Under the pieces are notes generated by a model, which was not told the origin of the DNA, did not search any database, and saw only the letters and a list, made by a program, of their open reading frames with translations. A stretch of DNA of 64,000 nt. It comes from Pseudochrobactrum asaccharolyticum (GTDB lineage: Bacteria; Pseudomonadota; Alphaproteobacteria; Rhizobiales; Rhizobiaceae). Positions 24,582 through 39,480 of this stretch are shown here, piece by piece (position 1 is the first letter of the stretch; each line of letters opens with the position of its first letter). The position numbers were made by a program, and so were the translations under genes. The DNA is taken from contig NZ_QNRH01000013.1 of assembly GCF_003314995.1 (NCBI RefSeq), forward strand, positions 1 through 64,000, read 5' to 3'.

Positions 24582-24595
24582 GCCATAGATGGCGG
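24582..24595 (-). promoter_or_regulatory. start-associated palindrome, copy 1
   Basis: GCCAT-AG-ATGGC, perfect, plus GG; 14 bases before the DUF4942-methyltransferase ATG. This copy lies between divergent genes, so it accompanies the first gene of a transcript. Its internal ATG runs into a stop at once. Confidence 0.7.
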
Positions 24596-24655
24596 ATTGC
24601 TTTTGTTTAACTTAATGATTACTCGGGTTAAGGAATATTTTATTAAGAGATGATC

Positions 24656-25669
24656 ATGCGATTCAGTATACAAACTGCAGCTAAAATAATTGCCGGTATT
24701 GTCGGACTTATTTTTCAAGCTTTTCTTATGTATCTTACATGGACCGCAATTAAAAACTACGGATTCCAAAATATAGGCATTGTAGTAGATGATTACAAAA
24801 TCGATATTCCACTATACATTTGGATTGTTTTTGCCATTTCAATAATAGCTATTAACTATCTTTTATTTAATTATATAACAAAAAAAATTAAAGATGAGGA
24901 CGAAGTATCGCGTTGGGATACTTCAGAATTAGACCTTGTAGAACAAAGAATTAATAGGCGTATTGATTACCTTATTAATAATACACCATCTGAAAATTTA
25001 TTAAGTCCAGATTTTTTTAGAAAAATCATTGAAGAGAAATTTGACGATGAAATTATAACTTCCGTTGATGAAGCGCTAACACGACGAGTTAATAAGGAAA
25101 GTAAAACTATTAGAACTCTTGATCAGCTCAATGGAGTGACGCAAGAACTTAAAATTAGATTGGAAGGACCAGCAGGCCGTGCCGAGAGGCATGCACATAC
25201 TGCCCGACGCATGGCGTATATTATGGCTATTCTTGGTATTGGGATTGCAGGATATCGCATTTATTTGCTGACCGATTTAACAACTACACTAAAAGAAATA
25301 TATGAGCTAACTGACGGATCTTCAATCTGGCCTTTTATCATTGCCCACTCAGCGCCATGGCTAGGCCTTGTTCTCTTAATTGAGTTCACGGCTTTACTAT
25401 TTGTGCGCTTCAGTACACAAGCCAGCACTCAGCAGAGATACTTTACCGAAGCCTATACAGAACTAAAAGATCGCCATGCAGCACTCAGCATCATCATTGA
25501 GTACGGAACGCCTGAACAGATCATTACTTCTGCTCGCTCCATGATAATTTATGGCCAACGCCGATTAGCGGAAACGAGTGATGCAGAGACAATAAATGCT
25601 TCATCTAATTTGATTCAGTCCTTAACTGGATTAGTCAATGAAGCTGCGGCGAAGGTCGGTGTAAAATAA
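24656..25669 (+). CDS. multi-pass membrane protein (candidate moron)
   Basis: 337 residues (339 from ATG 24650; ATG 24656 has AGAG at better spacing). Hydrophobic segments near 8-28 (KIIAGIVGLIFQAFLMYL), 48-70 (IPLYIWIVFAISIIAINYLL), about 185-205 and 230-255 suggest four membrane spans; the charged parts between spans 2 and 3 and after span 4 are soluble and helical. It is read against the surrounding leftward genes and is AT-richer, as expected for an independently acquired lysogenic gene. Superinfection exclusion is possible but not shown by any motif. Confidence 0.8.
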   Translation: MRFSIQTAAKIIAGIVGLIFQAFLMYLTWTAIKNYGFQNIGIVVDDYKIDIPLYIWIVFAISIIAINYLLFNYITKKIKDEDEVSRWDTSELDLVEQRINRRIDYLINNTPSENLLSPDFFRKIIEEKFDDEIITSVDEALTRRVNKESKTIRTLDQLNGVTQELKIRLEGPAGRAERHAHTARRMAYIMAILGIGIAGYRIYLLTDLTTTLKEIYELTDGSSIWPFIIAHSAPWLGLVLLIEFTALLFVRFSTQASTQQRYFTEAYTELKDRHAALSIIIEYGTPEQIITSARSMIIYGQRRLAETSDAETINASSNLIQSLTGLVNEAAAKVGVK

Positions 25670-25670
25670 A

Positions 25671-25707
25671 GCTATGTGCGGCTACAGTTTAAATAACCAC
25701 ACATAGC
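25671..25707 (-). terminator. hairpin between the membrane protein and clamp genes
   Basis: GCTATGTG (25671-25678) pairs with CACATAGC (25700-25707). On the minus strand TTTATTTTAC follows, so it can terminate the clamp transcript. Confidence 0.5.
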
Positions 25708-25716
25708 ATAAAGAGG

Positions 25717-26877
25717 TTAAACCCGCACAGGCATCAGGACATACGTTACTGCATCGTCCTTCGTGTCCTTAAATAACGCAGGTGTACCGGCATCACCGAA
25801 GAGCATTTTTACGTCGCCGTCGATTAATGAGAGTATGGCCAACAGGTATTCGCAGTTAAACCCGATGAGCAACTCAGTCTTATTGAATGCAACAATCTCT
25901 GTGGTTGCCGATCCGAAATCCGTATCGGTGCAGGTGAATGATAAAGCTTCGGATTTGAAGTGAAGATTAACCTGCTTGCTTTCTGAAAGAATTGCCGATG
26001 CCTGTTTAATTCCGGCGATCATATCCGAAACCATAGCGGCGACAGGATGATCATTTCCAGTTGGTATGACACGGATGTAATCAGGGAATTTCCCATCAAT
26101 CACTTTGGATTCCAGAGCCTCATCCTCACCAATAAGGAATGAAACTCCGATATCTGCAACAGTGATGAGCGTGCTGTCTGGGCAGGACTTGCGACTTAAT
26201 AGCCGCAATAACTCAATGATCGTTTTACGTGGAATGATCACGCCAGCATCGCGCATTGCCTCACTGCCATCCGGCGCAGGAAATTCATATCGCGCTAAAC
26301 GGTGGCCGTCGGTCGCAGCGAATGTCAGCTCATTGCTGTGGTCTGGGATGTGCATATAGACCCCGTTCAAATAATAGCGTGTCTCCTCTGTGGAGATAGA
26401 AGGTGCCACCTTTGATAAAGCCCTATGCAACTGCGTTGAGGAAATTTTGAAAGAGCAATTTGATCTCTCAATTGCATACCGGAATGACCCTTCCTGATCA
26501 GCGACGGGAAAATCGCTGGTATCATGTTCATGCTTGAGGTCGAGGTTCAATCCGCCAATTACAGCGACTACCCTGCTCTCCTCTTTGACAAGCATTACAT
26601 GAGATGATGCTTTTACTTTCTTGATTGTATTGAGAAACTTATTTGCATCGATGATACATTCGAAATCACGGGTGACATCACCAGAGACAAACTTTGCAGT
26701 ATAAATATCAAGGTCAGTCCCGGTCACACGCACGCCATTTCTCATGGCTTTAATGTGAACCGTTTTTAGTATGTCCACAGATGTGCGCTTCTCAATAATT
26801 TTACAGGCGTTGGTAAGGGCTTCAATAAACGGTGCGTACTCAAGGCGGGCGGAAGTAATGTTCGTCTGCATATTCAT
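25717..26877 (-). CDS. dnaN: DNA polymerase III beta subunit (sliding clamp)
   Basis: 386 residues, three-domain beta clamp: LEYAPFIEALTNACKIIEKR at the start, LTFAATDGHRLARYEF in the second domain, GKFPDYIRVIP linking to the third and a C-terminal YVLMPVRV. Such a phage clamp could recruit host polymerase to phage DNA. ATG 26877 has GGAG six bases before it; an in-frame ATG 21 bases upstream is part of the repeated palindrome. Confidence 0.92.
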   Translation of the reverse strand: MNMQTNITSARLEYAPFIEALTNACKIIEKRTSVDILKTVHIKAMRNGVRVTGTDLDIYTAKFVSGDVTRDFECIIDANKFLNTIKKVKASSHVMLVKEESRVVAVIGGLNLDLKHEHDTSDFPVADQEGSFRYAIERSNCSFKISSTQLHRALSKVAPSISTEETRYYLNGVYMHIPDHSNELTFAATDGHRLARYEFPAPDGSEAMRDAGVIIPRKTIIELLRLLSRKSCPDSTLITVADIGVSFLIGEDEALESKVIDGKFPDYIRVIPTGNDHPVAAMVSDMIAGIKQASAILSESKQVNLHFKSEALSFTCTDTDFGSATTEIVAFNKTELLIGFNCEYLLAILSLIDGDVKMLFGDAGTPALFKDTKDDAVTYVLMPVRV

Positions 26878-26893
26878 ATGTGTCTCCACGAGT

Positions 26894-26908
26894 GCCATAG
26901 TTGGCGGG
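26894..26908 (-). promoter_or_regulatory. start-associated palindrome, copy 2
   Basis: GCCA-TAGT-TGGC followed by GGG; 16 bases before the clamp start and between divergent genes. Its ATG is in frame, exactly 21 bases upstream of the chosen start. Confidence 0.75.
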
Positions 26909-26963
26909 TTCAGTTCATCTTAAGAAAGTCGTGCTTTTATCCCTTAAAGAATAGGGAGTTAGT

Positions 26964-27296
26964 ATGCTGAAATTTGAAATTTCCAGCTCGGATGGAACGG
27001 GCACTTACACAGTCACCATTCAAGGACAGCCAGGCAGTGTAAAAATGTTCTGCACTTGTGCGGCGGGAGAAAAAGGAACCTCCTGTAAACATCGTCTTAA
27101 CTTGCTTGATGGTGATTACAGCGCAATACAATCAAACAATGCAGATGAGCTGCAGGTGCTATCATCTTGGTTGCCTGGAAGCAGCTTAGAGCGCTCGATC
27201 ACAGTTTTACAATCCGCAGATAAAGAGCTTGAAAAAGCAAAGAGGCAAGTTACAGCCGCTAAAAAACAACTTGGTCTAGCGATGCGGAATGGTTAG
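26964..27296 (+). CDS. SWIM-type zinc finger protein
   Basis: 110 residues. FCTCAAGEKGTSCKHR fits the SWIM finger CxC...CxH, followed by a helical tail rich in Lys and Ala. SWIM fingers bind DNA or proteins. It is a single rightward gene inside the leftward block, with its own ribosome site (GGGAG) and its own terminator, so it probably has a separate promoter within 26909-26950. Confidence 0.75.
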   Translation: MLKFEISSSDGTGTYTVTIQGQPGSVKMFCTCAAGEKGTSCKHRLNLLDGDYSAIQSNNADELQVLSSWLPGSSLERSITVLQSADKELEKAKRQVTAAKKQLGLAMRNG

Positions 27297-27318
27297 GCCA
27301 GTCACTTTGAATTAAAAC

Positions 27319-27347
27319 AAAAGGCCGGACAATTAGCCCGGCCTTTT
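27319..27347. terminator. bidirectional terminator
   Basis: AAAAGGCCGG and CCGGCCTTTT form a perfect 10-bp stem with a 9-base loop; A and T runs on the two sides serve both the rightward SWIM gene and the convergent secreted-protein gene. Confidence 0.88.
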
Positions 27348-27351
27348 GTGA

Positions 27352-27690
27352 TTAAAGAACATTCATTTTTTGTAGCTCGTCTTTATTTTGTTCCCGCCAT
27401 TCTTTGGCGGTCTTGCAAAAACCGGCTACGTCTTTTTCGTACTGTTTGAGACTGCCGTCGTACTCAATCTGAGTTTCAGCCTCGATCTTGTCCTTATCCC
27501 AGCCCATTGTCATCCCGAGCCGGTAGATATGACCGGATAATGAGGCGTCATTGTATCTTTGCCCTACGCACTTTTCATTCGCCACAAAAAGCATTGAGAG
27601 CTTTTGGAATTGTTCCTGAGCCTCATTGGCAAAGGAAACATGAGGTGAAAGCATGGTTGCCATAGCAACGACTGAAACGATGATGCGCAT
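27352..27690 (-). CDS. small exported protein
   Basis: 112 residues. N-terminal signal peptide IIVSVVAMATMLSPHVSFA with likely cleavage after SFA, then a 90-residue helical charged domain with two Cys (EKCVGQ, GFCKTA) that could form a disulphide. Probably periplasmic; function unknown. AGGAG precedes the ATG. Ends at a strong bidirectional terminator. Confidence 0.75.
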   Translation of the reverse strand: MRIIVSVVAMATMLSPHVSFANEAQEQFQKLSMLFVANEKCVGQRYNDASLSGHIYRLGMTMGWDKDKIEAETQIEYDGSLKQYEKDVAGFCKTAKEWREQNKDELQKMNVL

Positions 27691-27805
27691 AATGATCTCC
27701 TGATGCGGAGGTCAGTCTGGCATATTACTTAGGCATAACTCATGCCGGTGCGCTGCCGCCTCCATGATGATCATATGAAGCAAATCATACATGGGTTTGG
27801 CAAGA

Positions 27806-28330
27806 TCAATATTGAGGCGTCAGTCCGTAATGGTGACCAAGGTCTTTGACAAACTCAACCGGATCAGCGCCCTGTTCAAAGGCAGCAAGCGTTTTATCAG
27901 CATGTTCGTTGATTAAGTCTTCATGCCCCCAACAAGTGCCGCCTGCCTTATATGCGATCGCATACCAGTTATCTTTCAATATTCCCGCCTTTACAGAACC
28001 CGCTGTGTTTCCAACATTCGGAAGGTCTTTCTCGTAAATGACTGGATAGCCATCTGCATCAACAGCGAATTTAAGAATGTGAGGGACAACCTCCCAATCA
28101 AAAGACATCTGATCAAAAATGTCAGGATCATCTTTGATACACAAGGAATGAACTTTCAGCAGCCACTGGGCAAGTTCGATAGACTGGTGACGCAATTCAA
28201 GAGTCCCTACGCCATCTCTGAGCTCAACCCATTTGTCGATTTTCTCATCCGGATCTAGCGTCCACTCGTTGATGCATTCCCATACACACAAGGCTGCATT
28301 TATTTCATCGTAGCTATATAGTTTGAGCAT
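27806..28330 (-). CDS. hypothetical protein
   Basis: 174 residues, acidic, with Trp-rich N-terminus (CVWECINEWTLDPDEKIDKW). No family recognised. A strong AGGAG site precedes ATG 28330. The 115-base gap to the next gene holds no further recognisable gene. Confidence 0.7.
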   Translation of the reverse strand: MLKLYSYDEINAALCVWECINEWTLDPDEKIDKWVELRDGVGTLELRHQSIELAQWLLKVHSLCIKDDPDIFDQMSFDWEVVPHILKFAVDADGYPVIYEKDLPNVGNTAGSVKAGILKDNWYAIAYKAGGTCWGHEDLINEHADKTLAAFEQGADPVEFVKDLGHHYGLTPQY

Positions 28331-28354
28331 TACGTCTCCTAAACAGCAGCCTTG

Positions 28355-29218
28355 TTAAAGATCACGGCGGATACCGAGGAACACAGGGAAGCGCGGCGCA
28401 CCATGAGTACCAACACCCTGATACTTGAAGGTCACTTTTTGACCGATCAGAGATTCCCGTTCAGACCAGAGCTGATCACGCTGGCTTTGTGTAAAGCCAG
28501 TACCAAGCTCGAATGCGATATCGTTCCAAACACACTGGATAGCACCGAGTGTATCTTTGCCTTTCATACCTGCCTTGGCAGATGACCGTTCCATCCGGCC
28601 AAACACATTGGTCTTGGCTTCATTGGTATTCTCCATCTGTTCAACGGTGCCGGTGATAGTGGCTTCGTCATCAGTGAAGCGCTTTACCTTCAAGAGAATG
28701 CCTTCCCGTGCAGTGGAACGGCCAAATTTATAGATGCCGTTCGGATTTCGAAGCATCGCACCTTCCCAGCCGAGTTTGTCGATACATAAACTCTCATAAT
28801 GATCGAGATCGGCAATATTGTTTATACAGACAGGCATCAGCGGTTCAATGAGGTCGCAAGCAATGGCTTCCATTTTGCGAATACGTGAGGCATATGCGTC
28901 TTTCGGTTCAGAGAAGTTGTCGAAAGCTATTAGTTTAAACTCTGGTGTGCCATCACGGGACATGACTTTAGACTGCACAGTATTGAAATCATCACGGACA
29001 CCGTCGGTATAGGTGAGGATTTCTCCGTCAAGATGAGCAAAAATCGGAGAGGCCAGTGCATCACGGATATGCACGTTTGGAATGGGCTTTAGAGTGCGAG
29101 AAACGACACCAACGTCCGGCATGATAAGGCAACGAATGCCATCGATCTTTGGGGTGGCGAGGTATGGGAATTTCAAAAGGGCAACGTCAGCCGTTGCCGC
29201 GAGAAGCGGTTTAAACAT
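28355..29218 (-). CDS. ATP-dependent DNA ligase
   Basis: 287 residues. Motif I TPKIDGIR with the adenylated Lys24; LDGEIL (motif III), WEGAMLRNPNG (motif IV) and GILLKVKR (motif V) follow in order, as in small T7/Chlorella-type ligases. Seals nicks during phage replication. ATG 29218 has GGAG six bases upstream; the TTG at 29230 would overlap the ribosome site. Confidence 0.92.
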   Translation of the reverse strand: MFKPLLAATADVALLKFPYLATPKIDGIRCLIMPDVGVVSRTLKPIPNVHIRDALASPIFAHLDGEILTYTDGVRDDFNTVQSKVMSRDGTPEFKLIAFDNFSEPKDAYASRIRKMEAIACDLIEPLMPVCINNIADLDHYESLCIDKLGWEGAMLRNPNGIYKFGRSTAREGILLKVKRFTDDEATITGTVEQMENTNEAKTNVFGRMERSSAKAGMKGKDTLGAIQCVWNDIAFELGTGFTQSQRDQLWSERESLIGQKVTFKYQGVGTHGAPRFPVFLGIRRDL

Positions 29219-29233
29219 TGTATTCTCCAATGT

Positions 29234-29246
29234 GCATGATTGCAGG
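29234..29246 (-). promoter_or_regulatory. start-associated palindrome, copy 3
   Basis: GCA-TGAT-TGC followed by AGG; 15 bases before the ligase start. Internal ATG is out of frame with the ligase. Confidence 0.65.
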
Positions 29247-29250
29247 ATAG

Positions 29251-29589
29251 TCAGCAGATGTAAGGATCATTGCCGGTCGAGGCGTGCCAAGTCTCGCCGT
29301 TGCAGTTAACTGTAATGCTTACGAGAGCATCAGGGCCGATCTCATCAACGATAGCGGCCGAATAATCGATATGGGCTTCAGTAGCATAGTGGCCAATGCC
29401 TGACTGAACAGCTCTCATGGCCAACATTTGGCCGGTCTCTGCCTCTAAGTGCTGAGCCACCCAATGCATAATATTGCAGATGAGATCACCGGCAATCGTT
29501 TCTGGATCTTCTCCATCCAGCCCTTGGTCAGAGATAAATGCAGTGAGAAACTCACTAACCGATGCAGCCCTCTTTTGGTTGTTCATCAT
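29251..29589 (-). CDS. hypothetical protein
   Basis: 112 residues, starting MMNNQKRAASVSEFLTAF; no recognised family, beta-rich C-terminus with two Cys. ATG 29589 has AAGGA upstream. It begins inside the end of the preceding gene (35-base overlap) and carries an embedded palindrome copy upstream. Confidence 0.65.
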   Translation of the reverse strand: MMNNQKRAASVSEFLTAFISDQGLDGEDPETIAGDLICNIMHWVAQHLEAETGQMLAMRAVQSGIGHYATEAHIDYSAAIVDEIGPDALVSITVNCNGETWHASTGNDPYIC

Positions 29590-29890
29590 TTTGATTTCCT
29601 TGGTTGCCATGATTGGCGGGATCAAAGGGCGGTAAGGGCTCAAGATGCGCATACTCACCACTCTCACAGTTATTTTCTATGGTTACATGCCGAAGCGGCA
29701 AACCAGTGGTTAGGATGAGATGGGTTCGATAAATATCAATCCGCTCTTGAACGGATATGAAGCGCTCGCCAGTATCAGGGTATGGCTTATGCTGATTGGA
29801 CTCCCATATGAGGTATTCTGCGTATTCAATCAGATCAGCGTGCATATCTCTGTCGGCTTTGAGGCGAACAGCCTCACCGATGCTGACCAT
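29555..29890 (-). CDS. hypothetical protein
   Basis: 111 residues; N-terminal helical part (MHADLIEYAEYLIWESNQ) and a Pro/Asn/Gln-rich end. No family recognised. GAGG lies six bases before ATG 29890, which is inside the end of the 63-residue gene upstream. Confidence 0.6.
   Translation of the reverse strand: MVSIGEAVRLKADRDMHADLIEYAEYLIWESNQHKPYPDTGERFISVQERIDIYRTHLILTTGLPLRHVTIENNCESGEYAHLEPLPPFDPANHGNQGNQNDEQPKEGCIG
29606..29620 (-). promoter_or_regulatory. start-associated palindrome, copy 4 (inside a coding region)
   Basis: GCCA-TGAT-TGGC followed by GGG; 16 bases before ATG 29589 and inside the 3' end of the upstream gene, so the element is kept even where the gene overlap leaves no spacer. 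In-frame ATG at 21 bases. Confidence 0.72.
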
Positions 29891-30065
29891 TCAGCACCTC
29901 ATTAAGATCGACGATTTGGCAATCTCCGCCGCTGTCATGCTCAATGACTTGGTAGACTGTGGCCATAGTGTCCGGTCGGCGCACTAAATCATGCGCCTGC
30001 TGGGCTGCTTCATGCGCTGTTGCAGCGTGGATATGGATTTCCCATGAGACAAGGAATGTCTTCAT
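29874..30065 (-). CDS. small DpnD/PcfM-like protein
   Basis: 63 residues: MKTFLVSWEIHIHAATAHEA then AAQQAHDLVRR, the strand-strand-helix plan also seen at 8305, 33915 and 35126, followed by a short acidic tail. ATGA overlap with the zinc-ribbon gene upstream supports translation. Confidence 0.6.
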   Translation of the reverse strand: MKTFLVSWEIHIHAATAHEAAQQAHDLVRRPDTMATVYQVIEHDSGGDCQIVDLNEVLNGQHR

Positions 30066-30211
30066 AGTGCGACCGCGCCCAGATCCTCAGATTGATGTGG
30101 CTCAATCTCTGCATTGCAGGCAGGGCATCGGTCATTACACGCACATGACCATTCATCCTGCCAAGCCACGTCGCACGCTTCACAATGATAGTGGTTGAGA
30201 TAGGTCGCCAT
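30062..30211 (-). CDS. small zinc-ribbon protein
   Basis: 49 residues with six Cys and a His in CEACDVAW..CACNDRCPACNAE: three CxxC-like pairs, a probable zinc ribbon. ATG 30211 has AAGGAAGG upstream; the longer frame overlaps the VWA gene and is rejected. Nucleic-acid or protein binding is a guess. Confidence 0.62.
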   Translation of the reverse strand: MATYLNHYHCEACDVAWQDEWSCACNDRCPACNAEIEPHQSEDLGAVAL

Positions 30212-30227
30212 ATCACCTTCCTTATTT

Positions 30228-30242
30228 GCCATACTTGGCGGG
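30228..30242 (-). promoter_or_regulatory. start-associated palindrome, copy 5
   Basis: GCCA-TACT-TGGC followed by GGG; 16 bases before ATG 30211, touching the stop of the VWA gene. In-frame ATG at 21 bases. Confidence 0.72.
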
Positions 30243-32511: not shown

Positions 32512-33505
32512 GGGTCACATCCTGATTACGAACTGCCCAATCTGTGAATGCACTGGTGTGAGATAAGGCCGGATCGCGGCGCACAGCATCGACTGCGAAC
32601 ATGATTTCAAACTCACGAGGCAGGCGCTGCATGTATGCCATGCCATTGTCGAAGGACTTGGCATCGACTTTACGAGCTAGCCCCGTTGCAATTGCGAAAC
32701 GTGCAGCCGGTTCTTCAGGGATTTTTGCGCTGTTCGGGTTAGCAAGCACCAGATCCAGTGAAGGCAGGCTCATGTATGTACGAATGAACCCTTCCAATTC
32801 AGCCGCAGCACCGTCACCAACAATAGCCGAAATACCCTGCATACGTACGGACGATGGCAGGTCGATCATCTTGGCAGCTTGCTCCCATGAACGTGGAGTA
32901 GGAAATGAACGCTCATCGTTCTTCGGCATGACATGCATCAGTGCTGGCCGGAAGCGCAGGAAAGCGATCAAGCGCGGGTCAACGCCCTTGTTGGAGAAAT
33001 GCTCAATATGCACATTTGTATGATCGGCGCTGTAGTCGGCATCAACATCAATATGAGCGAACCGGTTAGCGAGTGCGGAAGGCATTCGTTGTGCAGCGGC
33101 ACGGTCAGACTGTCGGTTACCAGCAGCAATCACGCGCCAGCCTTTTGGCATAACATAATCGCCAACTTTCCGATCGAGAACTAAACCAAACATTGCAGCC
33201 ATCATTGATGGGGCAGCGGCATTCAACTCATCCAGAAACAAGATGCCTTCAGCACCATCACGTTCAACTTGAGGAAACTCGTCAGGAACCTTCCACGCTG
33301 TGGTGTCACCGGAAACGTCAGGCAAGCCCATAAGGGCGACGGGGTCACGCGTTGAAGCGCGGAAGTCGATAGTCTTCCATCCACGCTCAGCAGAAATCTG
33401 ACCAATTATAGCCGACTTGCCGATGCCTGGGGCGCCCCACAGGAAGGTTGGGATATCGGTGTCGATAAATGTGTTCAGAAGGCTAGCTGCAGCTTTGAGG
33501 TGCAT
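32504..33505 (-). CDS. MoxR/CobS-like AAA+ ATPase
   Basis: 333 residues. Walker A GAPGIGKS (24-31), Walker B ILFLDELNAA, sensor 1 IAAGN and an Arg-rich SALANRFAHI segment define an AAA_5/MoxR-type ATPase. With the VWA gene (30243) and the DUF3150 gene (35529) it forms a chaperone-like set known from cobaltochelatase-like and RavA-ViaA-like pairs; the phage substrate is unknown. ATG 33505 has GGAG six bases upstream. Confidence 0.88.
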   Translation of the reverse strand: MHLKAAASLLNTFIDTDIPTFLWGAPGIGKSAIIGQISAERGWKTIDFRASTRDPVALMGLPDVSGDTTAWKVPDEFPQVERDGAEGILFLDELNAAAPSMMAAMFGLVLDRKVGDYVMPKGWRVIAAGNRQSDRAAAQRMPSALANRFAHIDVDADYSADHTNVHIEHFSNKGVDPRLIAFLRFRPALMHVMPKNDERSFPTPRSWEQAAKMIDLPSSVRMQGISAIVGDGAAAELEGFIRTYMSLPSLDLVLANPNSAKIPEEPAARFAIATGLARKVDAKSFDNGMAYMQRLPREFEIMFAVDAVRRDPALSHTSAFTDWAVRNQDVTLG

Positions 33506-33521
33506 TGATATCTCCATATTT

Positions 33522-33535
33522 GCCATGAGTGGCGG
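33522..33535 (-). promoter_or_regulatory. start-associated palindrome, copy 6
   Basis: GCCA-TGAG-TGGC followed by GG; 16 bases before the AAA ATPase start. In-frame ATG at 21 bases. Confidence 0.72.
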
Positions 33536-33546
33536 TTTTGTTCGGG

Positions 33547-33918
33547 TTATTTCCAGACCTGATAATCTGGGAAGAGGATGGCTGGCCCAGATACGGCCGG
33601 CAAGGATTCAGGATCACGCCATGGTTCATTCGACAGGACGTTGTTGCGGTAGATCTCAGTCGCCCTGATGTTGCGGATATGCCTGCCGTTTATGGCTGAT
33701 GTTTCACCTACAAACATATCGCGATACTCGCCCTCATAGAGGACATTCACGCGCTCGAAAGGCTCGTCGAACATTCTGCCGATCATAAGCATCAGGACGG
33801 CTCTTATGTTCTCCCCTTTCCCAATTGCCCCCTTATGCTCGGTCTTGGCTCCAAGCACAGGGATAAGCAGGAAGCGGATTGTCGGCGCAGATGGCGGCGG
33901 CAAGTTGCCGTGGCTCAT
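33547..33918 (-). CDS. hypothetical protein
   Basis: 123 residues, starting MSHGNLPPPSAPTIRFLLIP; no recognised domain. ATGA overlap with the 80-residue gene upstream. Within the leftward middle block. Confidence 0.62.
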   Translation of the reverse strand: MSHGNLPPPSAPTIRFLLIPVLGAKTEHKGAIGKGENIRAVLMLMIGRMFDEPFERVNVLYEGEYRDMFVGETSAINGRHIRNIRATEIYRNNVLSNEPWRDPESLPAVSGPAILFPDYQVWK

Positions 33919-34157
33919 GTGGATTCCTCCACAAATTCTAAACCATCCACGTCACCAATGGTGATAGCGGGGCTGATGCTTAGGTCTGGCAAGCAAGGAT
34001 TATCAAAGGCTAAACCACAGAACAAATCTCTGTTGTCACCCATGATCTCGACGCATCCGTTTGTCATTATAGATGCTCTGGCATGCGCAGCCTCCGCAGT
34101 TTCAGCCTTCACATAAGCCGTGCCATAAAGTGTGATTGGTACGCTGAAGATTTTCAT
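33915..34157 (-). CDS. small DpnD/PcfM-like protein
   Basis: 80 residues: MKIFSVPITLYGTAYVKAET then AEAAHARASI repeats the strand-strand-helix plan of the other small proteins, with a longer acidic tail. ATG 34157 forms an ATGA overlap and has GGAG eight bases upstream. Confidence 0.62.
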   Translation of the reverse strand: MKIFSVPITLYGTAYVKAETAEAAHARASIMTNGCVEIMGDNRDLFCGLAFDNPCLPDLSISPAITIGDVDGLEFVEEST

Positions 34158-34693
34158 GCCGCCTTCTCCGCAAATATTTTCAGCCATACCTGCACAGCAG
34201 GAGATGCAGTGAGTGGCGGGAAGTCACCCCCTGCTTGCAATTCAGCTGTATCGATTAGACGTTGAATGCTCGTGATTGGAGTATCGGTGGCGAGCGCCTC
34301 TTTAAGCTCACGGACTGAAATCAGCGCTCCACTAAATGCATAGTGGTCAACCGATGTGTACTTGAGCTCTCCATGAACGGTATGAGTGCGTTCAATAGTA
34401 TTCGCGCCGCTTTCATTCTCCATGTGCGCCATCTTTTGCAGCGATGGATATTTTTCGATCAAGGGGTCAATATCGTCGAAATTTCCGCCATGTTCATGAG
34501 TTGCATCTATAAGATCCAATGTCATGTTGCCCTCAATCGCCCTACGCATAGCCGATTGTGCCAACTCAATGCTGCTGATGAATCCACCTTCTTCATCGTC
34601 CAAAACCTCAGAAACAATAGCTTCAACCAGAGCAACTGCTTGCTCCACAGTTTCGATATGACCACCAAGAGAAAGAGTTAGTTTGCAACTCAT
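34154..34693 (-). CDS. hypothetical protein
   Basis: 179 residues, acidic and helical (VEQAVALVEAIVSEVLDDEE), no recognised family. A strong GGAGG site lies eight bases before ATG 34693, which overlaps the preceding stop (ATGA). Confidence 0.65.
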   Translation of the reverse strand: MSCKLTLSLGGHIETVEQAVALVEAIVSEVLDDEEGGFISSIELAQSAMRRAIEGNMTLDLIDATHEHGGNFDDIDPLIEKYPSLQKMAHMENESGANTIERTHTVHGELKYTSVDHYAFSGALISVRELKEALATDTPITSIQRLIDTAELQAGGDFPPLTASPAVQVWLKIFAEKAA

Positions 34694-35082
34694 GGAGTAA
34701 CCTCCTTAAATGAGATGTAACACTGGTCTTCTGGCGTCTCGCTCCATTCAGTGTCATGCATTGGGTTGCCTTCAAGCGTCCCTGCAGCTGCCCAAGCGGT
34801 CAACAGTTTGAGGTGAAGGCTCATAGCTTCCTCTTCTGATCGGGCAAACACCTCTTCGGTGAATATGGCAGTCACCTTGTACGAGCGGCCATCTGGATAG
34901 TCGTGAGTGGTGTTTTCCTTTTCCGCGCAGCCTTCAATTACAGTGAGCAACTGCGGGTGGATGTCGTCCACAAAGGTGCCGATGTCAGCATCGGGATAGC
35001 GTTCACGAAGGCTGACAATAGCCGCTGATGCTGAGCGTAGCGACAGGATGGCTTCGTTGAGTTTCTCTTTTACAGAGGTCAT
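34690..35082 (-). CDS. hypothetical protein with DpnD/PcfM-like C-terminal segment
   Basis: 130 residues. N-terminal helices (VKEKLNEAILSLRSASAAIV), then YKVTAIFTEEVFARSEEEAM, which resembles the strand-strand-helix small proteins nearby. ATG 35082 has AAAGGAG upstream; the longer upstream frame lacks one. Preceded by a palindrome copy. Confidence 0.65.
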   Translation of the reverse strand: MTSVKEKLNEAILSLRSASAAIVSLRERYPDADIGTFVDDIHPQLLTVIEGCAEKENTTHDYPDGRSYKVTAIFTEEVFARSEEEAMSLHLKLLTAWAAAGTLEGNPMHDTEWSETPEDQCYISFKEVTP

Positions 35083-35096
35083 AAGACGCTCCTTTC

Positions 35097-35111
35097 GCAT
35101 GATTGCGTGGG
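35097..35111 (-). promoter_or_regulatory. start-associated palindrome, copy 7
   Basis: GCA-TGAT-TGC followed by GTGGG; 14 bases before ATG 35082. In-frame ATG at 18 bases. Confidence 0.65.
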
Positions 35112-35125
35112 TAGTTGTTGGGAGG

Positions 35126-35314
35126 TTATGTGGCTGTATTAAAACAAATCCCTTTAACTTCAGCGCCGCTGCTATTCCCTGAAAACTCTCCAAATGGGTC
35201 TTCACTTTGCGCCCATGCATCAAGAGCTTCAGCTTGTGCTATCCCTGCATCATCAGCTTCGATTTCCATGGTGTAAGTAATCGTTTCTTTCAGCTGGATT
35301 TGATATTTGGGCAT
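35126..35314 (-). CDS. small DpnD/PcfM-like protein
   Basis: 62 residues: MPKYQIQLKETITYTMEIEA then DDAGIAQAEALDAWA, the clearest match here to the DpnD/PcfM plan. AGAGGGAACGT precedes the ATG, which lies in the end of the preceding gene (25-base overlap). Confidence 0.62.
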   Translation of the reverse strand: MPKYQIQLKETITYTMEIEADDAGIAQAEALDAWAQSEDPFGEFSGNSSGAEVKGICFNTAT

Positions 35315-35532
35315 ACGTTCCCTCTAATGGTAGGATTATGGGGTGCACGCAGGTCGAAGTTTTCTGATGAGCCAACTCGCTCGTCACATCTGAGATTGAC
35401 CAGAAAACCCTGCTCTAGCTCATGCTGTGCAAGGCTAAGTGCCTCATCTATAGGAACCACAAAGCGAGCCACATGATCCATCGAATGATGGCCACCCCAT
35501 ATATCAACAATTGTTTTGCGCTTGGCTGTCAT
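35290..35532 (-). CDS. hypothetical protein
   Basis: 80 residues, no recognised domain (KRKTIVDIWGGHHSMDHVAR; helix ALSLAQHELEQGFLVNL). ATGA overlap with the DUF3150 gene upstream supports translation. Confidence 0.58.
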   Translation of the reverse strand: MTAKRKTIVDIWGGHHSMDHVARFVVPIDEALSLAQHELEQGFLVNLRCDERVGSSENFDLRAPHNPTIRGNVCPNIKSS

Positions 35533-36434
35533 GCGAAATACTCAGAAACGCTCTGGAATATTTTCGCGGCTTCATCCGCAACGTCGCGGCGGATCGCGGG
35601 GTTATCGCGCAAGGTTGAAGCGTTATGTTCAGCCAAAGGTTTCAGCCTATCAGCCATGGCGGTCAATTCTGGATCACCGGTGATATTCAATGCCGGCAGC
35701 ACGCTGATTAGGTCGCGGATATTTTCGACCAGAGAGTCACGGAAAACGCCCTCTGATTTCTCCCCTTTGTGAACAGCTGGCTTATAAGCGTTCAGGCGCT
35801 CCACCATCCGGCCGGTAACATCGGCAACACGCTTATAAACATCTTGCACGGCGCTTGCGGTTGCATCGGCAACATTGCGCTCAATATCCTGTCTGATGAG
35901 TTCGGCTTGAGCATCGCTCATATCCACGCGGAAGTCGGTGGCGGTTGGTACCGGAAATACACGGCAATCAACACGAAACTTTGCGCGGAGTTCATCCGCT
36001 GATGGATAGTCATCCTGCTTAAACAAAGAACCCAAACGCTGTTGGGCATCATTAACGTAATCGGGATAGGAAGAGATGAACTCATCAACGGCACGTTCAA
36101 ATTTTGTGGTTTGCGCCCGGATCCAGCTCATATGAGAAAGATAACCATCACTGGCCATAATCCGCCCACCTTTGTCCATCCATGGAAGTGTGCGCTCATG
36201 AAATTCAGTGCGCGTGGCGCTCACGATTGACTGAATTGTTGCGAGCGCTTCTTTTGGCAACAGCAGCTTGTTGTAGCGGCCTGCATCGGCGGCCGCATTG
36301 TGTTGCTGGTTCACTTCATTGGTCACCTTACGATCAATTCTTCGCCCTTCCCATTGTGAGATATTGAGCGAGACAATCATTGCGCGGGTTGCAAGTACCG
36401 ATGAGACGGAATGGACAGGTGAGATCATATTCAC
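35529..36434 (-). CDS. DUF3150 domain protein
   Basis: 301 residues, largely helical. QWEGRRIDRKVTNEVNQQHN, LPKEALATIQSIVSATRTEF and the later SSYPDYVNDAQQRLGSLF segment fit DUF3150, a family found beside CobS-like AAA and VWA proteins in phages and plasmids. Start is probably GTG 36434, 7 bases after AGGAG; ATG 36428 is the alternative. The frame continues upstream through a palindrome copy but without initiation signals. Confidence 0.75.
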   Translation of the reverse strand: MNMISPVHSVSSVLATRAMIVSLNISQWEGRRIDRKVTNEVNQQHNAAADAGRYNKLLLPKEALATIQSIVSATRTEFHERTLPWMDKGGRIMASDGYLSHMSWIRAQTTKFERAVDEFISSYPDYVNDAQQRLGSLFKQDDYPSADELRAKFRVDCRVFPVPTATDFRVDMSDAQAELIRQDIERNVADATASAVQDVYKRVADVTGRMVERLNAYKPAVHKGEKSEGVFRDSLVENIRDLISVLPALNITGDPELTAMADRLKPLAEHNASTLRDNPAIRRDVADEAAKIFQSVSEYFA

Positions 36435-36452
36435 GGAATTTCTCCTATATTT

Positions 36453-36467
36453 GCCATGAGTGGCGGG
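36453..36467 (-). promoter_or_regulatory. start-associated palindrome, copy 8
   Basis: GCCA-TGAG-TGGC followed by GGG; 18 bases before the GTG start of the DUF3150 gene. Internal ATG reads eight codons and stops, so it cannot be the gene start. Confidence 0.7.
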
Positions 36468-36468
36468 G

Positions 36469-36771
36469 TTAAGCAGCAAGCGCCATGCGGCGTGCATTGC
36501 AAAGATCATTAACTTCAGCAGAGTAAGATGGCCAACGACCAACGGTATCGAGGGAAGCATAATTGTACCAGAAACGGCCATTGTGCGGCGTTGCTTTACA
36601 CAGCACGCCATGGCCATTGATTACACCGTCCAGATCACCATTCGGCTTAAAGATTTGGATTTCTCTGCCCTTTACTTTGTAGAAGCCAGATGCGGTGCCA
36701 TCAGGCTGAAAAAGAGTAGCTGTTAAAGCGTTTGCGCCGCACACGAAGCGGCGGCCATTGAGAATAATCAT
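36469..36771 (-). CDS. hypothetical protein
   Basis: 100 residues, beta-rich (MIILNGRRFVCGANALTATL, then GFYKVKGREIQIFKPNGDL), no family recognised. ATG 36771 has GGAG seven bases before it; an in-frame ATG 21 bases upstream belongs to the palindrome. Confidence 0.65.
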   Translation of the reverse strand: MIILNGRRFVCGANALTATLFQPDGTASGFYKVKGREIQIFKPNGDLDGVINGHGVLCKATPHNGRFWYNYASLDTVGRWPSYSAEVNDLCNARRMALAA

Positions 36772-36788
36772 TGGCTTTCTCCATAGGC

Positions 36789-36801
36789 GCATATTTGCAA
36801 G
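36789..36801 (-). promoter_or_regulatory. start-associated palindrome, copy 9
   Basis: GCA-TATT-TGC followed by AAG; 17 bases before ATG 36771. In-frame ATG at 21 bases. Confidence 0.6.
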
Positions 36802-36807
36802 TATGGT

Positions 36808-37110
36808 TTAAGAGGCGATGCGGAATTGTGTGCGAAGGCACATCGCCACCTGATCGGGCGTTAGCATGGAGACAAATAAGTCCACCAATTTGCGCGGCAG
36901 TGATATTTCCGACAGATAGTCGGACTCATCGACCTCACTTCTTTGCAGCGTTGCATGAAATGACCGATGTCGGACATCGTAGGTCAGTGTAATTAATCGA
37001 CGTCGGTTATTGCGTCCATCTTCCCAGACGTACCAGTCGAAATAATCGTCATCGTTCATTTGAGTTGGTTCTGTACTCACGAACAAATGTCTGTATCGTT
37101 GCGCATCCAT
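36808..37110 (-). CDS. distant member of the local paralogous family
   Basis: 100 residues. FDWYVWEDGRNN, LTYDVRHRSFHATL and LFVSMLTPDQVAMCL follow the pattern of the genes at 31399-32511 more loosely. AAAGGAG precedes ATG 37110. Function unknown. Confidence 0.65.
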   Translation of the reverse strand: MDAQRYRHLFVSTEPTQMNDDDYFDWYVWEDGRNNRRRLITLTYDVRHRSFHATLQRSEVDESDYLSEISLPRKLVDLFVSMLTPDQVAMCLRTQFRIAS

Positions 37111-37125
37111 GTTTTCTCCTTTGGT

Positions 37126-37138
37126 GCATGAGTGCGAG
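37126..37138 (-). promoter_or_regulatory. start-associated palindrome, copy 10
   Basis: GCA-TGAG-TGC followed by GAG; 15 bases before ATG 37110. Internal ATG is out of frame. Confidence 0.62.
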
Positions 37139-37143
37139 TAAAA

Positions 37144-37230
37144 TTATCGGCGCCGTAAAAGCATCCGGTAAGCGAAAAGTGTCGCGCAGATATAGAGCGC
37201 AATTATTGTGAGTACGGACGCAACAATCAT
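37144..37230 (-). CDS. tiny membrane protein (28 aa)
   Basis: 28 residues: MIVASVLTIIALYICATLFA spans the membrane once, then YRMLLRRR forms a positive cytoplasmic end. The start shares an ATGA with the stop of the 60-residue gene upstream, strong evidence for coupled translation. Too short for usual gene finders. Function unknown. Confidence 0.6.
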   Translation of the reverse strand: MIVASVLTIIALYICATLFAYRMLLRRR

Positions 37231-37409
37231 TCGGCCAAAACCTGATTAACGCTTTCAATCACAGTCAAAAGCATACGGTTGTTGTCGAGCGTCCAGTCCT
37301 GAACAGGTGTTGTGCCGATCTTGCGCAGACGCAGCATTTCGGTCTGTGCATTGTGCAAATGAAGCTTGAGCTCATTTAAAATTTTCCGCTCAATTGGTGT
37401 GGTAATCAT
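37227..37409 (-). CDS. hypothetical protein
   Basis: 60 residues, one long charged helix (IERKILNELKLHLHNAQTEM) and a short tail. ATG 37409 is preceded by a weak GCGAAAGACC. No clear palindrome copy lies upstream; the 217-base gap before it holds only a hairpin (37495-37514). Confidence 0.58.
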   Translation of the reverse strand: MITTPIERKILNELKLHLHNAQTEMLRLRKIGTTPVQDWTLDNNRMLLTVIESVNQVLAE

Positions 37410-37626
37410 AACGGTCTTTCGCTTTTCAAAATGATGCGCGTGCTGGTTTCGTGGGCTGGCAGTCACGCGACTTTATCCAGCCAAAAGCAATTCAGCCGGC
37501 TTTAAAAGTCCGGCGCATAGAGCACCTCCATGTTTGAGGGATCGGTGTGTGTCGCCATCATCGTGGCGTGTGTTGGTCGTTCTGCTGAGTGTTAAATGAT
37601 AGACAAACGACCAAGGATGCTTCAGC

Positions 37627-37731
37627 TCACATGAGCAGGGTCAGAAAGGCTGTAATGAACGCAATCATTGCGCAGCCAGACAAAAAGTCCTGAAGCCATG
37701 GCAAGCAAATTTGGATGATATCGCGCATCAT
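37627..37731 (-). CDS. tiny membrane protein (34 aa)
   Basis: 34 residues, MMRDIIQICLPWLQDFLSGC followed by AMIAFITAFLTLLM: an amphipathic start and one membrane span. It begins with an ATGA overlap on the 63-residue gene and has no ribosome site of its own. Could be holin-like or membrane-associated; no evidence for either. Confidence 0.55.
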   Translation of the reverse strand: MMRDIIQICLPWLQDFLSGCAMIAFITAFLTLLM

Positions 37732-37919
37732 GGCCGGACAACCACATGTTTTGATGAACCGGCAAGCAAGCGAGCAGCAGCAACAGCTTTTGTGCGGTCG
37801 CTGTATGTGGTCAAACATTCAACCACGCCGTTTGGCAGGTGAATTGAAAGCGCCCAGCGACTGCGTGTGCGGCGGCGTTGACTGGCGACAACATAGGTGT
37901 ACGGGATCACCGGTTTCAT
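37728..37919 (-). CDS. small basic protein
   Basis: 63 residues, Arg-rich (VVASQRRRTRSRWALSIHLP) with a C-terminal helix. ATG 37919 has GGAG upstream; an in-frame ATG 21 bases earlier lies in a palindrome copy. No family recognised. Confidence 0.6.
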   Translation of the reverse strand: MKPVIPYTYVVASQRRRTRSRWALSIHLPNGVVECLTTYSDRTKAVAAARLLAGSSKHVVVRP

Positions 37920-37936
37920 GTGCGTATCTCCATTTT

Positions 37937-37950
37937 GCATATTTGCAGGG
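37937..37950 (-). promoter_or_regulatory. start-associated palindrome, copy 11
   Basis: GCA-TATT-TGC followed by AGGG; 17 bases before ATG 37919. In-frame ATG at 21 bases. Confidence 0.65.
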
Positions 37951-37966
37951 TGCGCTGTGCGCGGGG

Positions 37967-38293
37967 TTATTCTCCGACAGGAATGCCGGTGCAGGCCTCA
38001 ACATTTTGATCTGTGGGAAATTCGGCGGCCAGACGGCACGCTTCAGAATCTTCAGGCAATGAAAGCACATAGGCTTCCGCGGCACCGGTTACAGGTACGC
38101 AAGAAGTCCATTCGCCCTCACCTGATGAAACAGCCAGATCAAAGCAAGTTTCAAAATCATCAAGATCCTTAAAGGTCTCGATTACAGAGGACTCGGTCAT
38201 GTTCCGGTCAAAGGCGACGATGACATAATGCGTTTCCGCACTGGCAAAGGTTGTCGCTGACAACAGGGCTATAGCTGTGAGGATGGTTTTCAT
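37967..38293 (-). CDS. small exported protein
   Basis: 108 residues. Signal peptide MKTILTAIALLSATTFASA with cleavage likely before ETHYV, then an acidic beta/alpha domain with four Cys that could form two disulphides. Probably periplasmic. GGAG eight bases before ATG 38293; ATGA overlap with the gene upstream. Function unknown. Confidence 0.75.
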   Translation of the reverse strand: MKTILTAIALLSATTFASAETHYVIVAFDRNMTESSVIETFKDLDDFETCFDLAVSSGEGEWTSCVPVTGAAEAYVLSLPEDSEACRLAAEFPTDQNVEACTGIPVGE

Positions 38294-38475
38294 TGGATAG
38301 TCTCCAAAATACGGCGCGACTGGAGACGCATGCGCATATCGTCTGACAACCTGACAGCAGTTTCCACTTCGCGCACGAAAGCCATGCGCTGACGTTCACG
38401 AAAGGTCTGAAAATGCGGATGCTTGAAAGGCGGCACATCGACATGCCGCAGGACAGAGTCCGAGCGTTGAACCAT
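38290..38475 (-). CDS. hypothetical protein
   Basis: 61 residues, Arg-rich and helical (FQTFRERQRMAFVREVETAV). ATG 38475 has GGAG six bases upstream. A terminator and a palindrome copy precede it, so it may head a transcription unit with the exported protein. Confidence 0.6.
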   Translation of the reverse strand: MVQRSDSVLRHVDVPPFKHPHFQTFRERQRMAFVREVETAVRLSDDMRMRLQSRRILETIQ

Positions 38476-38492
38476 GACAATCTCCAATTTTC

Positions 38493-38505
38493 GCATAATT
38501 GCGGG
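38493..38505 (-). promoter_or_regulatory. start-associated palindrome, copy 12
   Basis: GCA-TAAT-TGC followed by GGG; 17 bases before ATG 38475 and four bases after the tail of a terminator. In-frame ATG at 21 bases. Confidence 0.68.
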
Positions 38506-38508
38506 TAC

Positions 38509-38540
38509 AAAAAAGCCGTGGGCATTGCTGCCGCACGGCT
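38509..38540 (-). terminator. rho-independent terminator inside the middle block
   Basis: Minus strand AGCCGTG and CACGGCT form a 7-bp stem with a 13-base loop, followed by six T. It would end the transcript of the DUF1640-like gene. Confidence 0.78.
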
Positions 38541-38566
38541 CATTATTTGTGAGGGTGTGTTTCGCG

Positions 38567-38812
38567 TTATGCGAGCTTTAACAGCGTTGCAAGCGCGCCA
38601 ATACCAATGACCATAACGCCGCCAAGGCGCACCGTGATCATTAAAGCCTGACGTTCTATCAGGTGTTTCAATTCCGCAATATCTGTCTTTGTTGCGACTT
38701 CTGACATGACATAATCCCGTGCAACTTCTGCATGTGCCTCTGCCTGCGCCTGATTAACTCCGGCATTGGTGAGGTGTTTAACAAAAGCAAGTGTATCAAT
38801 ATGCGCTGTCAT
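38567..38812 (-). CDS. DUF1640-like coiled-coil membrane protein
   Basis: 81 residues. DTLAFVKHLTNAGVNQAQAE, ATKTDIAELKHLIERQ and a C-terminal membrane span (LGGVMVIGIGALATLLKLA) match the short DUF1640/CCDC90-like proteins common in proteobacteria and their phages. ATG 38812 has AGGA nine bases upstream. Confidence 0.75.
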   Translation of the reverse strand: MTAHIDTLAFVKHLTNAGVNQAQAEAHAEVARDYVMSEVATKTDIAELKHLIERQALMITVRLGGVMVIGIGALATLLKLA

Positions 38813-38829
38813 CAGTCTAATCCTTTTTT

Positions 38830-38843
38830 GCATAATTGCAGGG
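38830..38843 (-). promoter_or_regulatory. start-associated palindrome, copy 13
   Basis: GCA-TAAT-TGC followed by AGGG; 17 bases before ATG 38812. In-frame ATG at 21 bases. Confidence 0.66.
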
Positions 38844-38898
38844 TTGGCATGAAGCCGCGAAAAGGCACGCACATGCCCTTGCGTAGCTGCATGGAAGG

Positions 38899-38932
38899 TG
38901 CGCCCCAGCCAAGGGGGAATGACTAGGGCGCA
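38899..38932 (-). terminator. hairpin after the 166-residue gene
   Basis: TGCGCCC and GGGCGCA, perfect 7-bp stem with a 20-base loop, 13 bases beyond the stop at 38945. Only a weak CCTT follows on the minus strand, so termination may be partial. Confidence 0.4.
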
Positions 38933-38944
38933 TGAAAGCCAAGA

Positions 38945-39445
38945 TTAAGCGGCGGCTTTCATATCAGAGGAAACAACAGACAGGTGGGCAGACTTCGCCA
39001 CACGCAATACGCCTTCCATAGCTTTAACAACTTGCGGTGAAGCGCCGTTATCTGTCAGCTTTTTCAGTGATGCTTCAATGTGTTTGATTTCATCAAAAGC
39101 CGTGTCTGCTTTGGCTTTTGTTGTTTTCTGGTAATTGGCCGGTGCAATTTCCATTGCCTGAACCATGTCAGACGCTTTTGACTTCGCATACACAAATTCG
39201 CCGCTTTCACCGTCAAAAGACACTTTGCCGAACGCCATTGCCCAGGCACGCAATCCCCCGCGATAGTTGGCCGGAGTGACAGAATAAAGAGCGTTCAAAT
39301 ATTTAGGATCATTGTGCAATTCCACATGGTTTAAAGCGGAATAAGCAATCTGGTGTTCCCGCTCTGTAAATGTCGCGATAGCCTTGGCGCGGCCAGCGAT
39401 AGCGGATGTAAGAGCTTTGCCTGTCAGAACCTGAAATTTAGCCAT
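38945..39445 (-). CDS. first gene of the middle block, hypothetical
   Basis: 166 residues, Ala/Lys-rich. N-terminal LTGKALTSAIAGRAKAIATF and a C-terminal helical part (AFDEIKHIEASLKKL). No family assigned. ATG 39445 has GGAG nine bases upstream. As the promoter-proximal gene of the leftward middle block it may be made in large amounts; role unknown. Confidence 0.72.
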   Translation of the reverse strand: MAKFQVLTGKALTSAIAGRAKAIATFTEREHQIAYSALNHVELHNDPKYLNALYSVTPANYRGGLRAWAMAFGKVSFDGESGEFVYAKSKASDMVQAMEIAPANYQKTTKAKADTAFDEIKHIEASLKKLTDNGASPQVVKAMEGVLRVAKSAHLSVVSSDMKAAA

Positions 39446-39465
39446 GATATTAATCTCCATAAAGT

Positions 39466-39480
39466 GCCATAATTGGCGGG
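39466..39480 (-). promoter_or_regulatory. start-associated palindrome, copy 14
   Basis: GCCA-TAAT-TGGC followed by GGG; 20 bases before ATG 39445. Internal ATG reaches a stop after six codons. Confidence 0.72.

Follow-up and report, generated by a model that had tools for sequence, protein, structure and literature searches.

The window analysed here is a stretch of 64,000 bases out of the 67,940-base contig NZ_QNRH01000013.1 of Pseudochrobactrum asaccharolyticum, and has the overall look of a temperate phage. Its leftward middle block (22.5–39.4 kb) carries genes for a helix-turn-helix (HTH) protein, a methyltransferase-like protein, a clamp, a ligase, a DUF2201 protein and a MoxR-type ATPase, together with many small genes. 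Fourteen starts in this block are preceded by copies of one short element, predicted to form a hairpin in the mRNA. On the sense strand it consists of a C-rich flank, the sequence NNCA-NNYA-TGNN (a 4-bp stem and a tetraloop, mostly ANYA), a mostly A-rich spacer and a Shine-Dalgarno sequence (SD). The SD lies outside the stem, 3–8 nt from the hairpin. The copies, with the genes or open reading frames (ORFs) that they precede and their retention among ten related phages, are as follows.

24582..24593, minus strand: GCCA-TCTA-TGGC, before the methyltransferase-like gene (start 24567); 10/10 phages at this gene
26894..26905, minus strand: GCCA-ACTA-TGGC, before the sliding-clamp gene (26877; phrog_947); 9/9 homologs
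29233..29244, minus strand: TGCA-ATCA-TGCA, before the DNA ligase gene (29218; phrog_114)
29606..29617, minus strand: GCCA-ATCA-TGGC, before a 112-aa ORF (29589)
30228..30239, minus strand: GCCA-AGTA-TGGC, before a 49-aa ORF (30211)
33522..33533, minus strand: GCCA-CTCA-TGGC, before the MoxR-type ATPase gene (33505; phrog_1297); 10/10 phages
35096..35107, minus strand: CGCA-ATCA-TGCG, before a 130-aa ORF (35082)
36453..36464, minus strand: GCCA-CTCA-TGGC, before the DUF3150-like gene (36434, GTG start); 10/10 phages
36788..36799, minus strand: TGCA-AATA-TGCG (outer U.G), before a 100-aa ORF (36771)
37125..37136, minus strand: CGCA-CTCA-TGCA (outer C.A), the weakest copy, before a 100-aa ORF (37110); pairing probability 0.02 in a longer fold
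37936..37947, minus strand: TGCA-AATA-TGCA, before a 63-aa ORF (37919)
38492..38503, minus strand: CGCA-ATTA-TGCG, before a 61-aa ORF (38475); 6/6 family members in the ten phages
38829..38840, minus strand: TGCA-ATTA-TGCA, before an 81-aa ORF (38812)
39466..39477, minus strand: GCCA-ATTA-TGGC, before the first block gene (39445, phrog_1448); 10/10 phages

All four pairs are Watson-Crick in 12 of the 14 sites, the exceptions being those at 36771 (outer T.G) and 37110 (outer C.A). A preliminary description of this DNA had reported the 14 sites, in one orientation and at these starts, as a palindrome with an upstream GG/GGG extension. The sites, starts and orientation stand, and the extension is present, reading on the sense strand as the 5′ C-rich flank. 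The spacing to the start codon had been given as 14–20; measured from the stem end it is 13–20 nt, with 13 at start 35082.

The density is far above that of simulated sequence, as had been expected. A site matrix of 15 rows, including one overlapping register at 33505, gave 17 matches above its threshold of 14 bits on the minus strand (the 14 sites, the 33505 register, 1697 and a weak one at 60840) and one on the plus strand (16743). The background, 50 simulated Markov-1 sequences rather than an exact shuffle, had a mean of 0.82 matches on both strands together and a maximum of 3. A stricter pattern rule, formulated with the sites already in view, returned exactly the 14 sites on the minus strand and one match (19813) on the plus strand.

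Two of the matrix matches are extra copies outside the block.

1686..1697, minus strand: TCCA-ATTA-TGGA, 9 nt before ATG 1676 of a 70-aa ORF (1464–1676) beside the integrase
16743..16754, plus strand: GGCA-ATTA-TGCC, apparently an orphan, after a gene with a ribosome modulation factor (RMF) domain

The stem of the first is also found before small ORFs in records G003 and G007. At the position of the second (16727–16899, plus strand), several relatives have a small element-bearing gene, and the window retains the element only, with no convincing gene remnant. The RMF-domain gene itself (16241–16726, plus strand) encodes a 161-aa protein with an N-terminal helical region followed by the C-terminal RMF domain (Pfam E 1.1e-6, above cut-off). 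The loop of a weak model match at 8440–8467 on the minus strand (E 1e-3), ahead of a 46-aa ORF, is itself the SD-like AGGA. The match may be a decayed copy, given that G004 has a strong element at a small gene of some similarity.

Base pairing and choice of starts

The selection of copies for alignment A1 ignored both outer pairs but demanded CANNNATG, the C-rich flank, an SD and a start. It collected 119 copies, in 118 of which the third pair was Watson-Crick; three were left out as probable chance, one of them being the row that broke this pair. Among the 115 distinct copies the third pair is Watson-Crick in every one (G-C 75, C-G 36, U-A 4), while the outer pair is C-G in 39, G-C in 37, U-A in 7 and something else, mostly C.A, in 32. 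The covariation score was 0.390, whereas shuffles scored 0.081 and slid controls no more than 0.026. When the other three pairs were required to be Watson-Crick, the base opposite the closing U was A in 108 cases, G in 23, C in 2 and T in none. The loop is asymmetric: with the loop unconstrained and the second pair held at C-G, A occurs at position 1 in 99/148, a pyrimidine at position 3 in 126/148 and A at position 4 in 130/148.

Four-pair hairpins were also enumerated, irrespective of their letters, 12–22 nt before 965 gene starts. The CA..TG type made up 71 of the 104 with four-base loops; at a control distance it was outside the eight commonest types among 73. When all loop sizes were pooled, hairpins were not enriched at starts (357 against 400 in the control), so the signal is that of this single hairpin type. 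The G.U closing pair, which breaks a DNA dyad, the covariation and the asymmetric loop mark the element as RNA rather than a DNA palindrome, and correct the earlier description in this respect. From the aligned copies, it is almost certainly an RNA hairpin. The energy of the single hairpins is −1.5 to −5.0 kcal/mol.

Relatives were found by protein search with the ATPase and include prophages in Brucella pecoris, B. tritici, Ensifer, Rhizobium and Peteryoungia. All matches listed for ten ATPase-anchored loci (L010, L055–L059, L062–L065) are on the sense strand. One of these loci, L058 of Rhizobium sp. CF080, is identical to L008, the piece of record G004 that holds the HTH gene. Two exact scans of viral contigs made with the element only found 22 contigs, 17 of which, including the window's own record, belong to this phage group; the remaining five had single matches each. 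The expectation that related phages keep the element at their starts was borne out. In ten gene-called phages, 49/49 starts of the methyltransferase, clamp, ATPase, DUF3150 and phrog_1448 families carry it, 45 by rule and four read individually (start miscalled, piece boundary or weak flank), with the split fragment G002_033 left out of the count.

The choice of starts within the block appears to follow translational uncoupling, an uncoupled gene being one that begins 26 nt or more beyond its predecessor, or that follows a change of strand. By a loose rule, the element was found at 102/149 uncoupled block starts and 12/146 coupled block genes, and outside the block at 11/278 uncoupled and 5/404 coupled genes. 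These counts are approximate because the loose rule over-calls: it made 234 matches where reversed sequence had 31, and of the 234, 131 were at starts, while 86 fell within genes and 17 between them. Since the element needs room, coupled and uncoupled genes are bound to differ to some extent; no such bias affects the comparison with other operons. The cases outside the block include real ones, such as the small gene that follows the RMF-domain gene in several relatives. Late-region families present in at least five of the ten phages have no element-bearing member among those listed. The element had been described as a mark of the leftward block without copies in the early or late operons. This holds for the late genes and for its concentration in the block, where uncoupled starts are marked, but it is not confined there, as 1697 (minus strand), 16743 (plus strand) and the small gene after the RMF-domain gene in relatives attest.

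A host origin was rejected. In the 4.65-Mb genome, a covariance model at E ≤ 1e-3 gave 13 matches, 11 of them within the phage contig (9 of the 14 sites, 1697 and 16743). The two outside it, G000:C5:8789-8816 (minus strand; L060) and G000:C6:175681-175708 (minus strand; L061), are not followed by an SD and look like chance. Among 397 same-order genomes, scanned with stricter filters than the own genome, matches at E ≤ 1e-4 occurred in seven, namely the window's own and six others with one each, and element clusters are absent from the 396 others. In parts of the records of Mae-JY30, Pra-JY27, 16-3 and RR1-A, distant phages that share terminase, clamp or DUF3150 homologs, the best match had an E of 0.29. 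A known RNA family was likewise rejected: neither the window nor seven related loci gave an Rfam match at gathering score, and of six matches obtained in 24500–39600 under permissive settings (E up to 5) none fell at an element.

A candidate reader and its distant homologs

As the hairpin is weak alone and the stem leaves out the SD, it is probably read by a protein. The candidate lies at the end of the block.

22485–22934, minus strand: 149-aa HTH protein, the proposed hairpin-binding regulator, directly after the element-bearing methyltransferase gene

This is the sole family found in all ten phages that is neither late-region nor element-bearing, and in the main group its gene follows the methyltransferase gene at −11 to 37 nt. 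It is present in 17/17 records with at least four model matches. The structural model (pLDDT 88.8, pTM 0.50, leaving the domain arrangement uncertain) has an N-terminal domain of a beta-hairpin plus helix and an XRE-type HTH. In 4 of 12 members the N-terminal half has a match to the Dicer_dimer domain that falls below cut-off, and Aca2_YdiL was matched by one of 12 (E 0.18). No family member was found in named phages at E ≤ 0.1, and among 385 same-class genomes only the window's own appeared at E ≤ 1e-10.

A profile search for the HTH protein that ignored the element (397 same-order and 201 related genomes, E ≤ 1e-8) returned six near-full-length and three HTH-only homologs besides the window's own. 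Repeated start hairpins occur on the HTH strand near four of the six near-full-length homologs (L162, L164, L166 and L167), in three of them with changed loops. L162 has the same backbone and the standard hairpin, with 10 model matches. The hairpins of L164 have the loop ANYG, stem covariation and G.U closing, and are mostly followed by AACGAAAGGA; with up to three mismatches allowed, the pattern has four matches there against 0.01 expected. In L166, CCC-GCCC-N4/5-GGGC precedes 6 of 16 minus-strand starts, including that of its own HTH gene, and the N5 form with a CC flank has five matches, four of them at starts, against 0.22 expected. The homologs in L166 among the block proteins tested are only the HTH protein (by profile) and a 62-aa protein. 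L167 has GCCC-GATCTT-GGGC in two copies only, and shares the clamp, part of the methyltransferase and the HTH protein. A hairpin stands at the HTH gene's own start in L162, L164 and L166, though not in L163, L165 or L167.

A scan for hairpins with the L164-type loop found 50 stretches in 49 records. The only record matched twice has four such hairpins before starts; it also holds a homolog of the HTH part only (E 7.9e-9), truncated where the locus ends. The others were single matches, and the portions of their records that were fetched contained no HTH homolog. The homolog of L224/L250 covers the HTH only. The corresponding scan for the L166 type gave 28 stretches with one pattern match each and no HTH homolog in the fetched pieces, and these are probably chance.

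Region 613–5456 of L166 (minus strand) is a small-gene cluster with its own start-hairpin family and the HTH homolog. PHROG matches there were obtained for only three of eight scanned proteins, all of unknown function.

Proposed regulation, rival readings and known systems

By these comparisons a phage group of rhizobia and related bacteria has a genuine and conserved RNA element, and the proposed reader gains support from co-occurrence in distant regions. The hairpin could serve as a structured translational operator at most independently translated starts of the replication/modification block, with genes whose starts overlap or abut following via translational coupling. The HTH protein would bind the hairpin and compete with the 30S subunit and, as it accumulates, would turn the block down, a feedback like that of T4 RegA or Aca2. 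A protein held 3–8 nt upstream of an SD would overlap the 30S footprint; this overlap favours repression, and a hairpin at the regulator's own start fits negative feedback. Action at translation is very probable, and repression, rather than activation by, for example, ribosome recruitment, is reasonably so. The chance that the HTH protein is the reader is put at about even, and the whole scheme, a phage-wide translational regulon of HTH-bound hairpins that represses the block by feedback, at somewhat better than that. Extension to a family of phage RNA-hairpin readers is a tentative proposal whose prospects fall just short of even: lineages of the order would have their own hairpin forms (ANYA, ANYG, C-G-closed larger loops) and matching HTH proteins, making a genome-scale, co-evolving translational regulon.

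Several observations weigh against this scheme. The outer pair is unpaired in 32/115 rows, and folds with 30-nt flanks give pairing probabilities of 0.02–0.76 for the hairpin and 0.08–0.75 for an unpaired SD. No element was detected at 47/149 uncoupled block starts. The HTH gene has no start hairpin of its own in the ten main phages, and the ATPase is likewise present in 17/17 records with at least four matches, so that co-distribution in the main group singles out nothing. The HTH helices resemble a DNA-binding XRE domain, and Foldseek matches are mostly to DNA-binding or antitoxin proteins, with weak ones to MqsA, HigA2, Aca1, Aca2 and Aca10, none below E 1e-3. At the distant loci, L164 and L167 share clamp and methyltransferase too, not the HTH protein alone, and no hairpin family was found in two of the six near-full-length homolog loci (L163/L173, L165/L174) or at the three HTH-only loci L168–L170, the first of which covers only 2.5 kb. 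Without the CC flank, GCCCN5GGGC in L166 has five matches against 1.22 expected, a number reached by 1/200 shuffles. Counts of unspecific hairpins with a C flank are modestly above control (L162 7 vs 4, L164 6 vs 4, L166 6 vs 3, L167 5 vs 0), and the case for the new loci thus rests on the repetition of one sequence type. A distant homolog of the RMF protein lies in L172, the 20 kb next to L166. Lastly, the sequence evidence appears to fit repression and activation alike.

Control of each gene's transcription by a duplex palindrome, bound by the HTH protein or another repressor or activator, would suit the mostly DNA-binding structural matches of the candidate, since XRE HTH proteins bind palindromic DNA and four-base-spaced dyads are typical operators. 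Such a DNA operator is nevertheless unlikely: the half-sites are not interchangeable, the third position being matched in 115/115; G.U is tolerated where G.T breaks a DNA dyad; the A...A of the loop breaks dyad symmetry; and the single orientation, short SD spacing and preference for uncoupled starts also weigh against it. Sigma-70-like promoters in the block number 19, compared with 25.9 in shuffles, and none has its second hexamer in a same-strand element, in agreement with the earlier remark that the element lacks a −35 partner; a promoter reading was rejected on these grounds. A processing site or promoter of a phage-specific enzyme, for which the T4 RegB nuclease and the N4 hairpin promoter are the models, would account for the hairpin form and its repeated placement beside GGAG. 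However, no RNA polymerase was found among the window proteins scanned (not every ORF was), a transcript starting just 3′ of the hairpin would have almost no leader, and this is the most improbable of the readings, with a very small chance.

An RNA acting in cis with no phage factor, as a translational enhancer, standby feature or mRNA 5′ stabiliser, is compatible with the short distance to an SD that is outside the stem. It too is unlikely, as a 4-bp stem is weak, the identity of loop and closing pair is conserved beyond the needs of stability, lineage-specific loops accompany HTH homologs, and the 396 other same-order genomes have no clusters. A different phage or host factor as the reader is likewise unlikely. 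The example considered was the early RMF-domain protein acting at the ribosome, which carries the above-cut-off domain match and occurs in 14/17 records with at least four matches; its homolog in L172 (25.9% identity, E 2e-7) is the reason for keeping it as a rival. As a needed reader it is not favoured, because it has no match in G010 (a fragment), G011 and G017, which have 11, 9 and 13 elements, and is present in G414, where no element was found. The AlphaFold model of this protein is of poor quality (pLDDT 68).

The nearest mechanistic precedent for the proposed translational control appears, by analogy, to be Aca2 of phage ZF40 (Birkholz et al. 2024, Nature 631:670). It is reportedly a phage HTH protein that binds both RNA and DNA and autoregulates one acr-aca operon, whereas here a dozen or so genes of the replication block carry the hairpin; its resemblance to the HTH protein is a weak similarity of the HTH fold, the comparison of sequences giving the match to Aca2_YdiL at E 0.18 in one of 12 members. 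The coat-protein operator of MS2/R17 has an ANYA tetraloop on a short stem beside the ribosome binding site. The present element differs in having no bulged A, a four-pair stem and an occurrence in double-stranded DNA phages. In T4, the small protein RegA competes with the ribosome at some 30 initiation regions, and its sites are A+U-rich and without apparent structure or clear conservation (PMC3014915). A single small phage protein serving many initiation regions would be the common trait, but the sites here are conserved, covarying hairpins. General scans of window proteins, which did not take in every ORF, returned no RegA family member.

The preliminary description likened the element to the start-associated sequences (SAS) of cluster K mycobacteriophages in placement, though not in sequence, and both parts agree with the report on them. 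The SAS occur in 11–19 copies per genome, mostly in a single orientation and with unknown function, directly before starts of non-structural genes, mainly those more than 50 bp from their upstream neighbour; they are kept across phages and are not a host sequence (PMC3203893). For the 17-bp ESAS repeats, its authors regarded an mRNA hairpin as poorly supported and favoured DNA-binding proteins (PMC3203893). The likeness lies in placement, copy number and the preference for starts far from an upstream neighbour; the shared trait of uncoupled non-structural starts in one orientation is seen here as 102/149 against 11/278, with none in the listed late-region families. The SAS is a 13-bp asymmetric GGGATAGGAGCCC that contains the SD, whereas the element here is a hairpin upstream of the SD, and where an ESAS hairpin was doubted, stem covariation and G.U pairs here support RNA. 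No such motif was seen in the available part of a survey of candidate structured RNAs (PMC2864571). The statement that no such element had been described for alphaproteobacterial phages is consistent with the titles and abstract openings listed in searches confined to open-access papers, and with the absence of an Rfam match.

Phage control is usually described via promoters and DNA repressors; here, some dozen genes each have a copy of one conserved RNA hairpin in front of them. The covariation is strong enough to establish the hairpin from sequence, and a candidate reader accompanies the element in every place where it is dense, and is found as well in regions farther removed, near altered hairpins. 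If the proposed regulation is true, the result would be a natural family of RNA-binding HTH proteins together with hairpin variants that match them, which could serve work on RNA recognition and synthetic regulation. T4 RegA would also gain a structured counterpart, and the start-associated sequences of mycobacteriophages, so far unexplained, a concrete model.

Other features of the window

The remaining parts of the phage are arranged as follows.

Left end of the window: integrase
Leftward block: RecT, exonuclease and helicase genes
Between the leftward RecT block and the rightward primase/DnaB block: repressor
Rightward block: primase and DnaB
From 40.9 kb, rightward: late genes

A 1203-aa protein encoded at 1791–5402 (minus strand) has a SIR2-like domain (Pfam SIR2_2, E 5e-17), and is possibly the product of a prophage-borne defence gene. 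Within the middle block, the MoxR-type ATPase, the DUF2201 protein (VWA-like/metallopeptidase) and the DUF3150-like protein are encoded near each other (30243–36434, minus strand), and are conserved across the phage group. The small proteins of 31808–32182 and 32179–32454 (minus strand) form one apparently paralogous set, and those of 31399–31806 and 36808–37110 (minus strand) a second; several phages of the group have more than one member of each.

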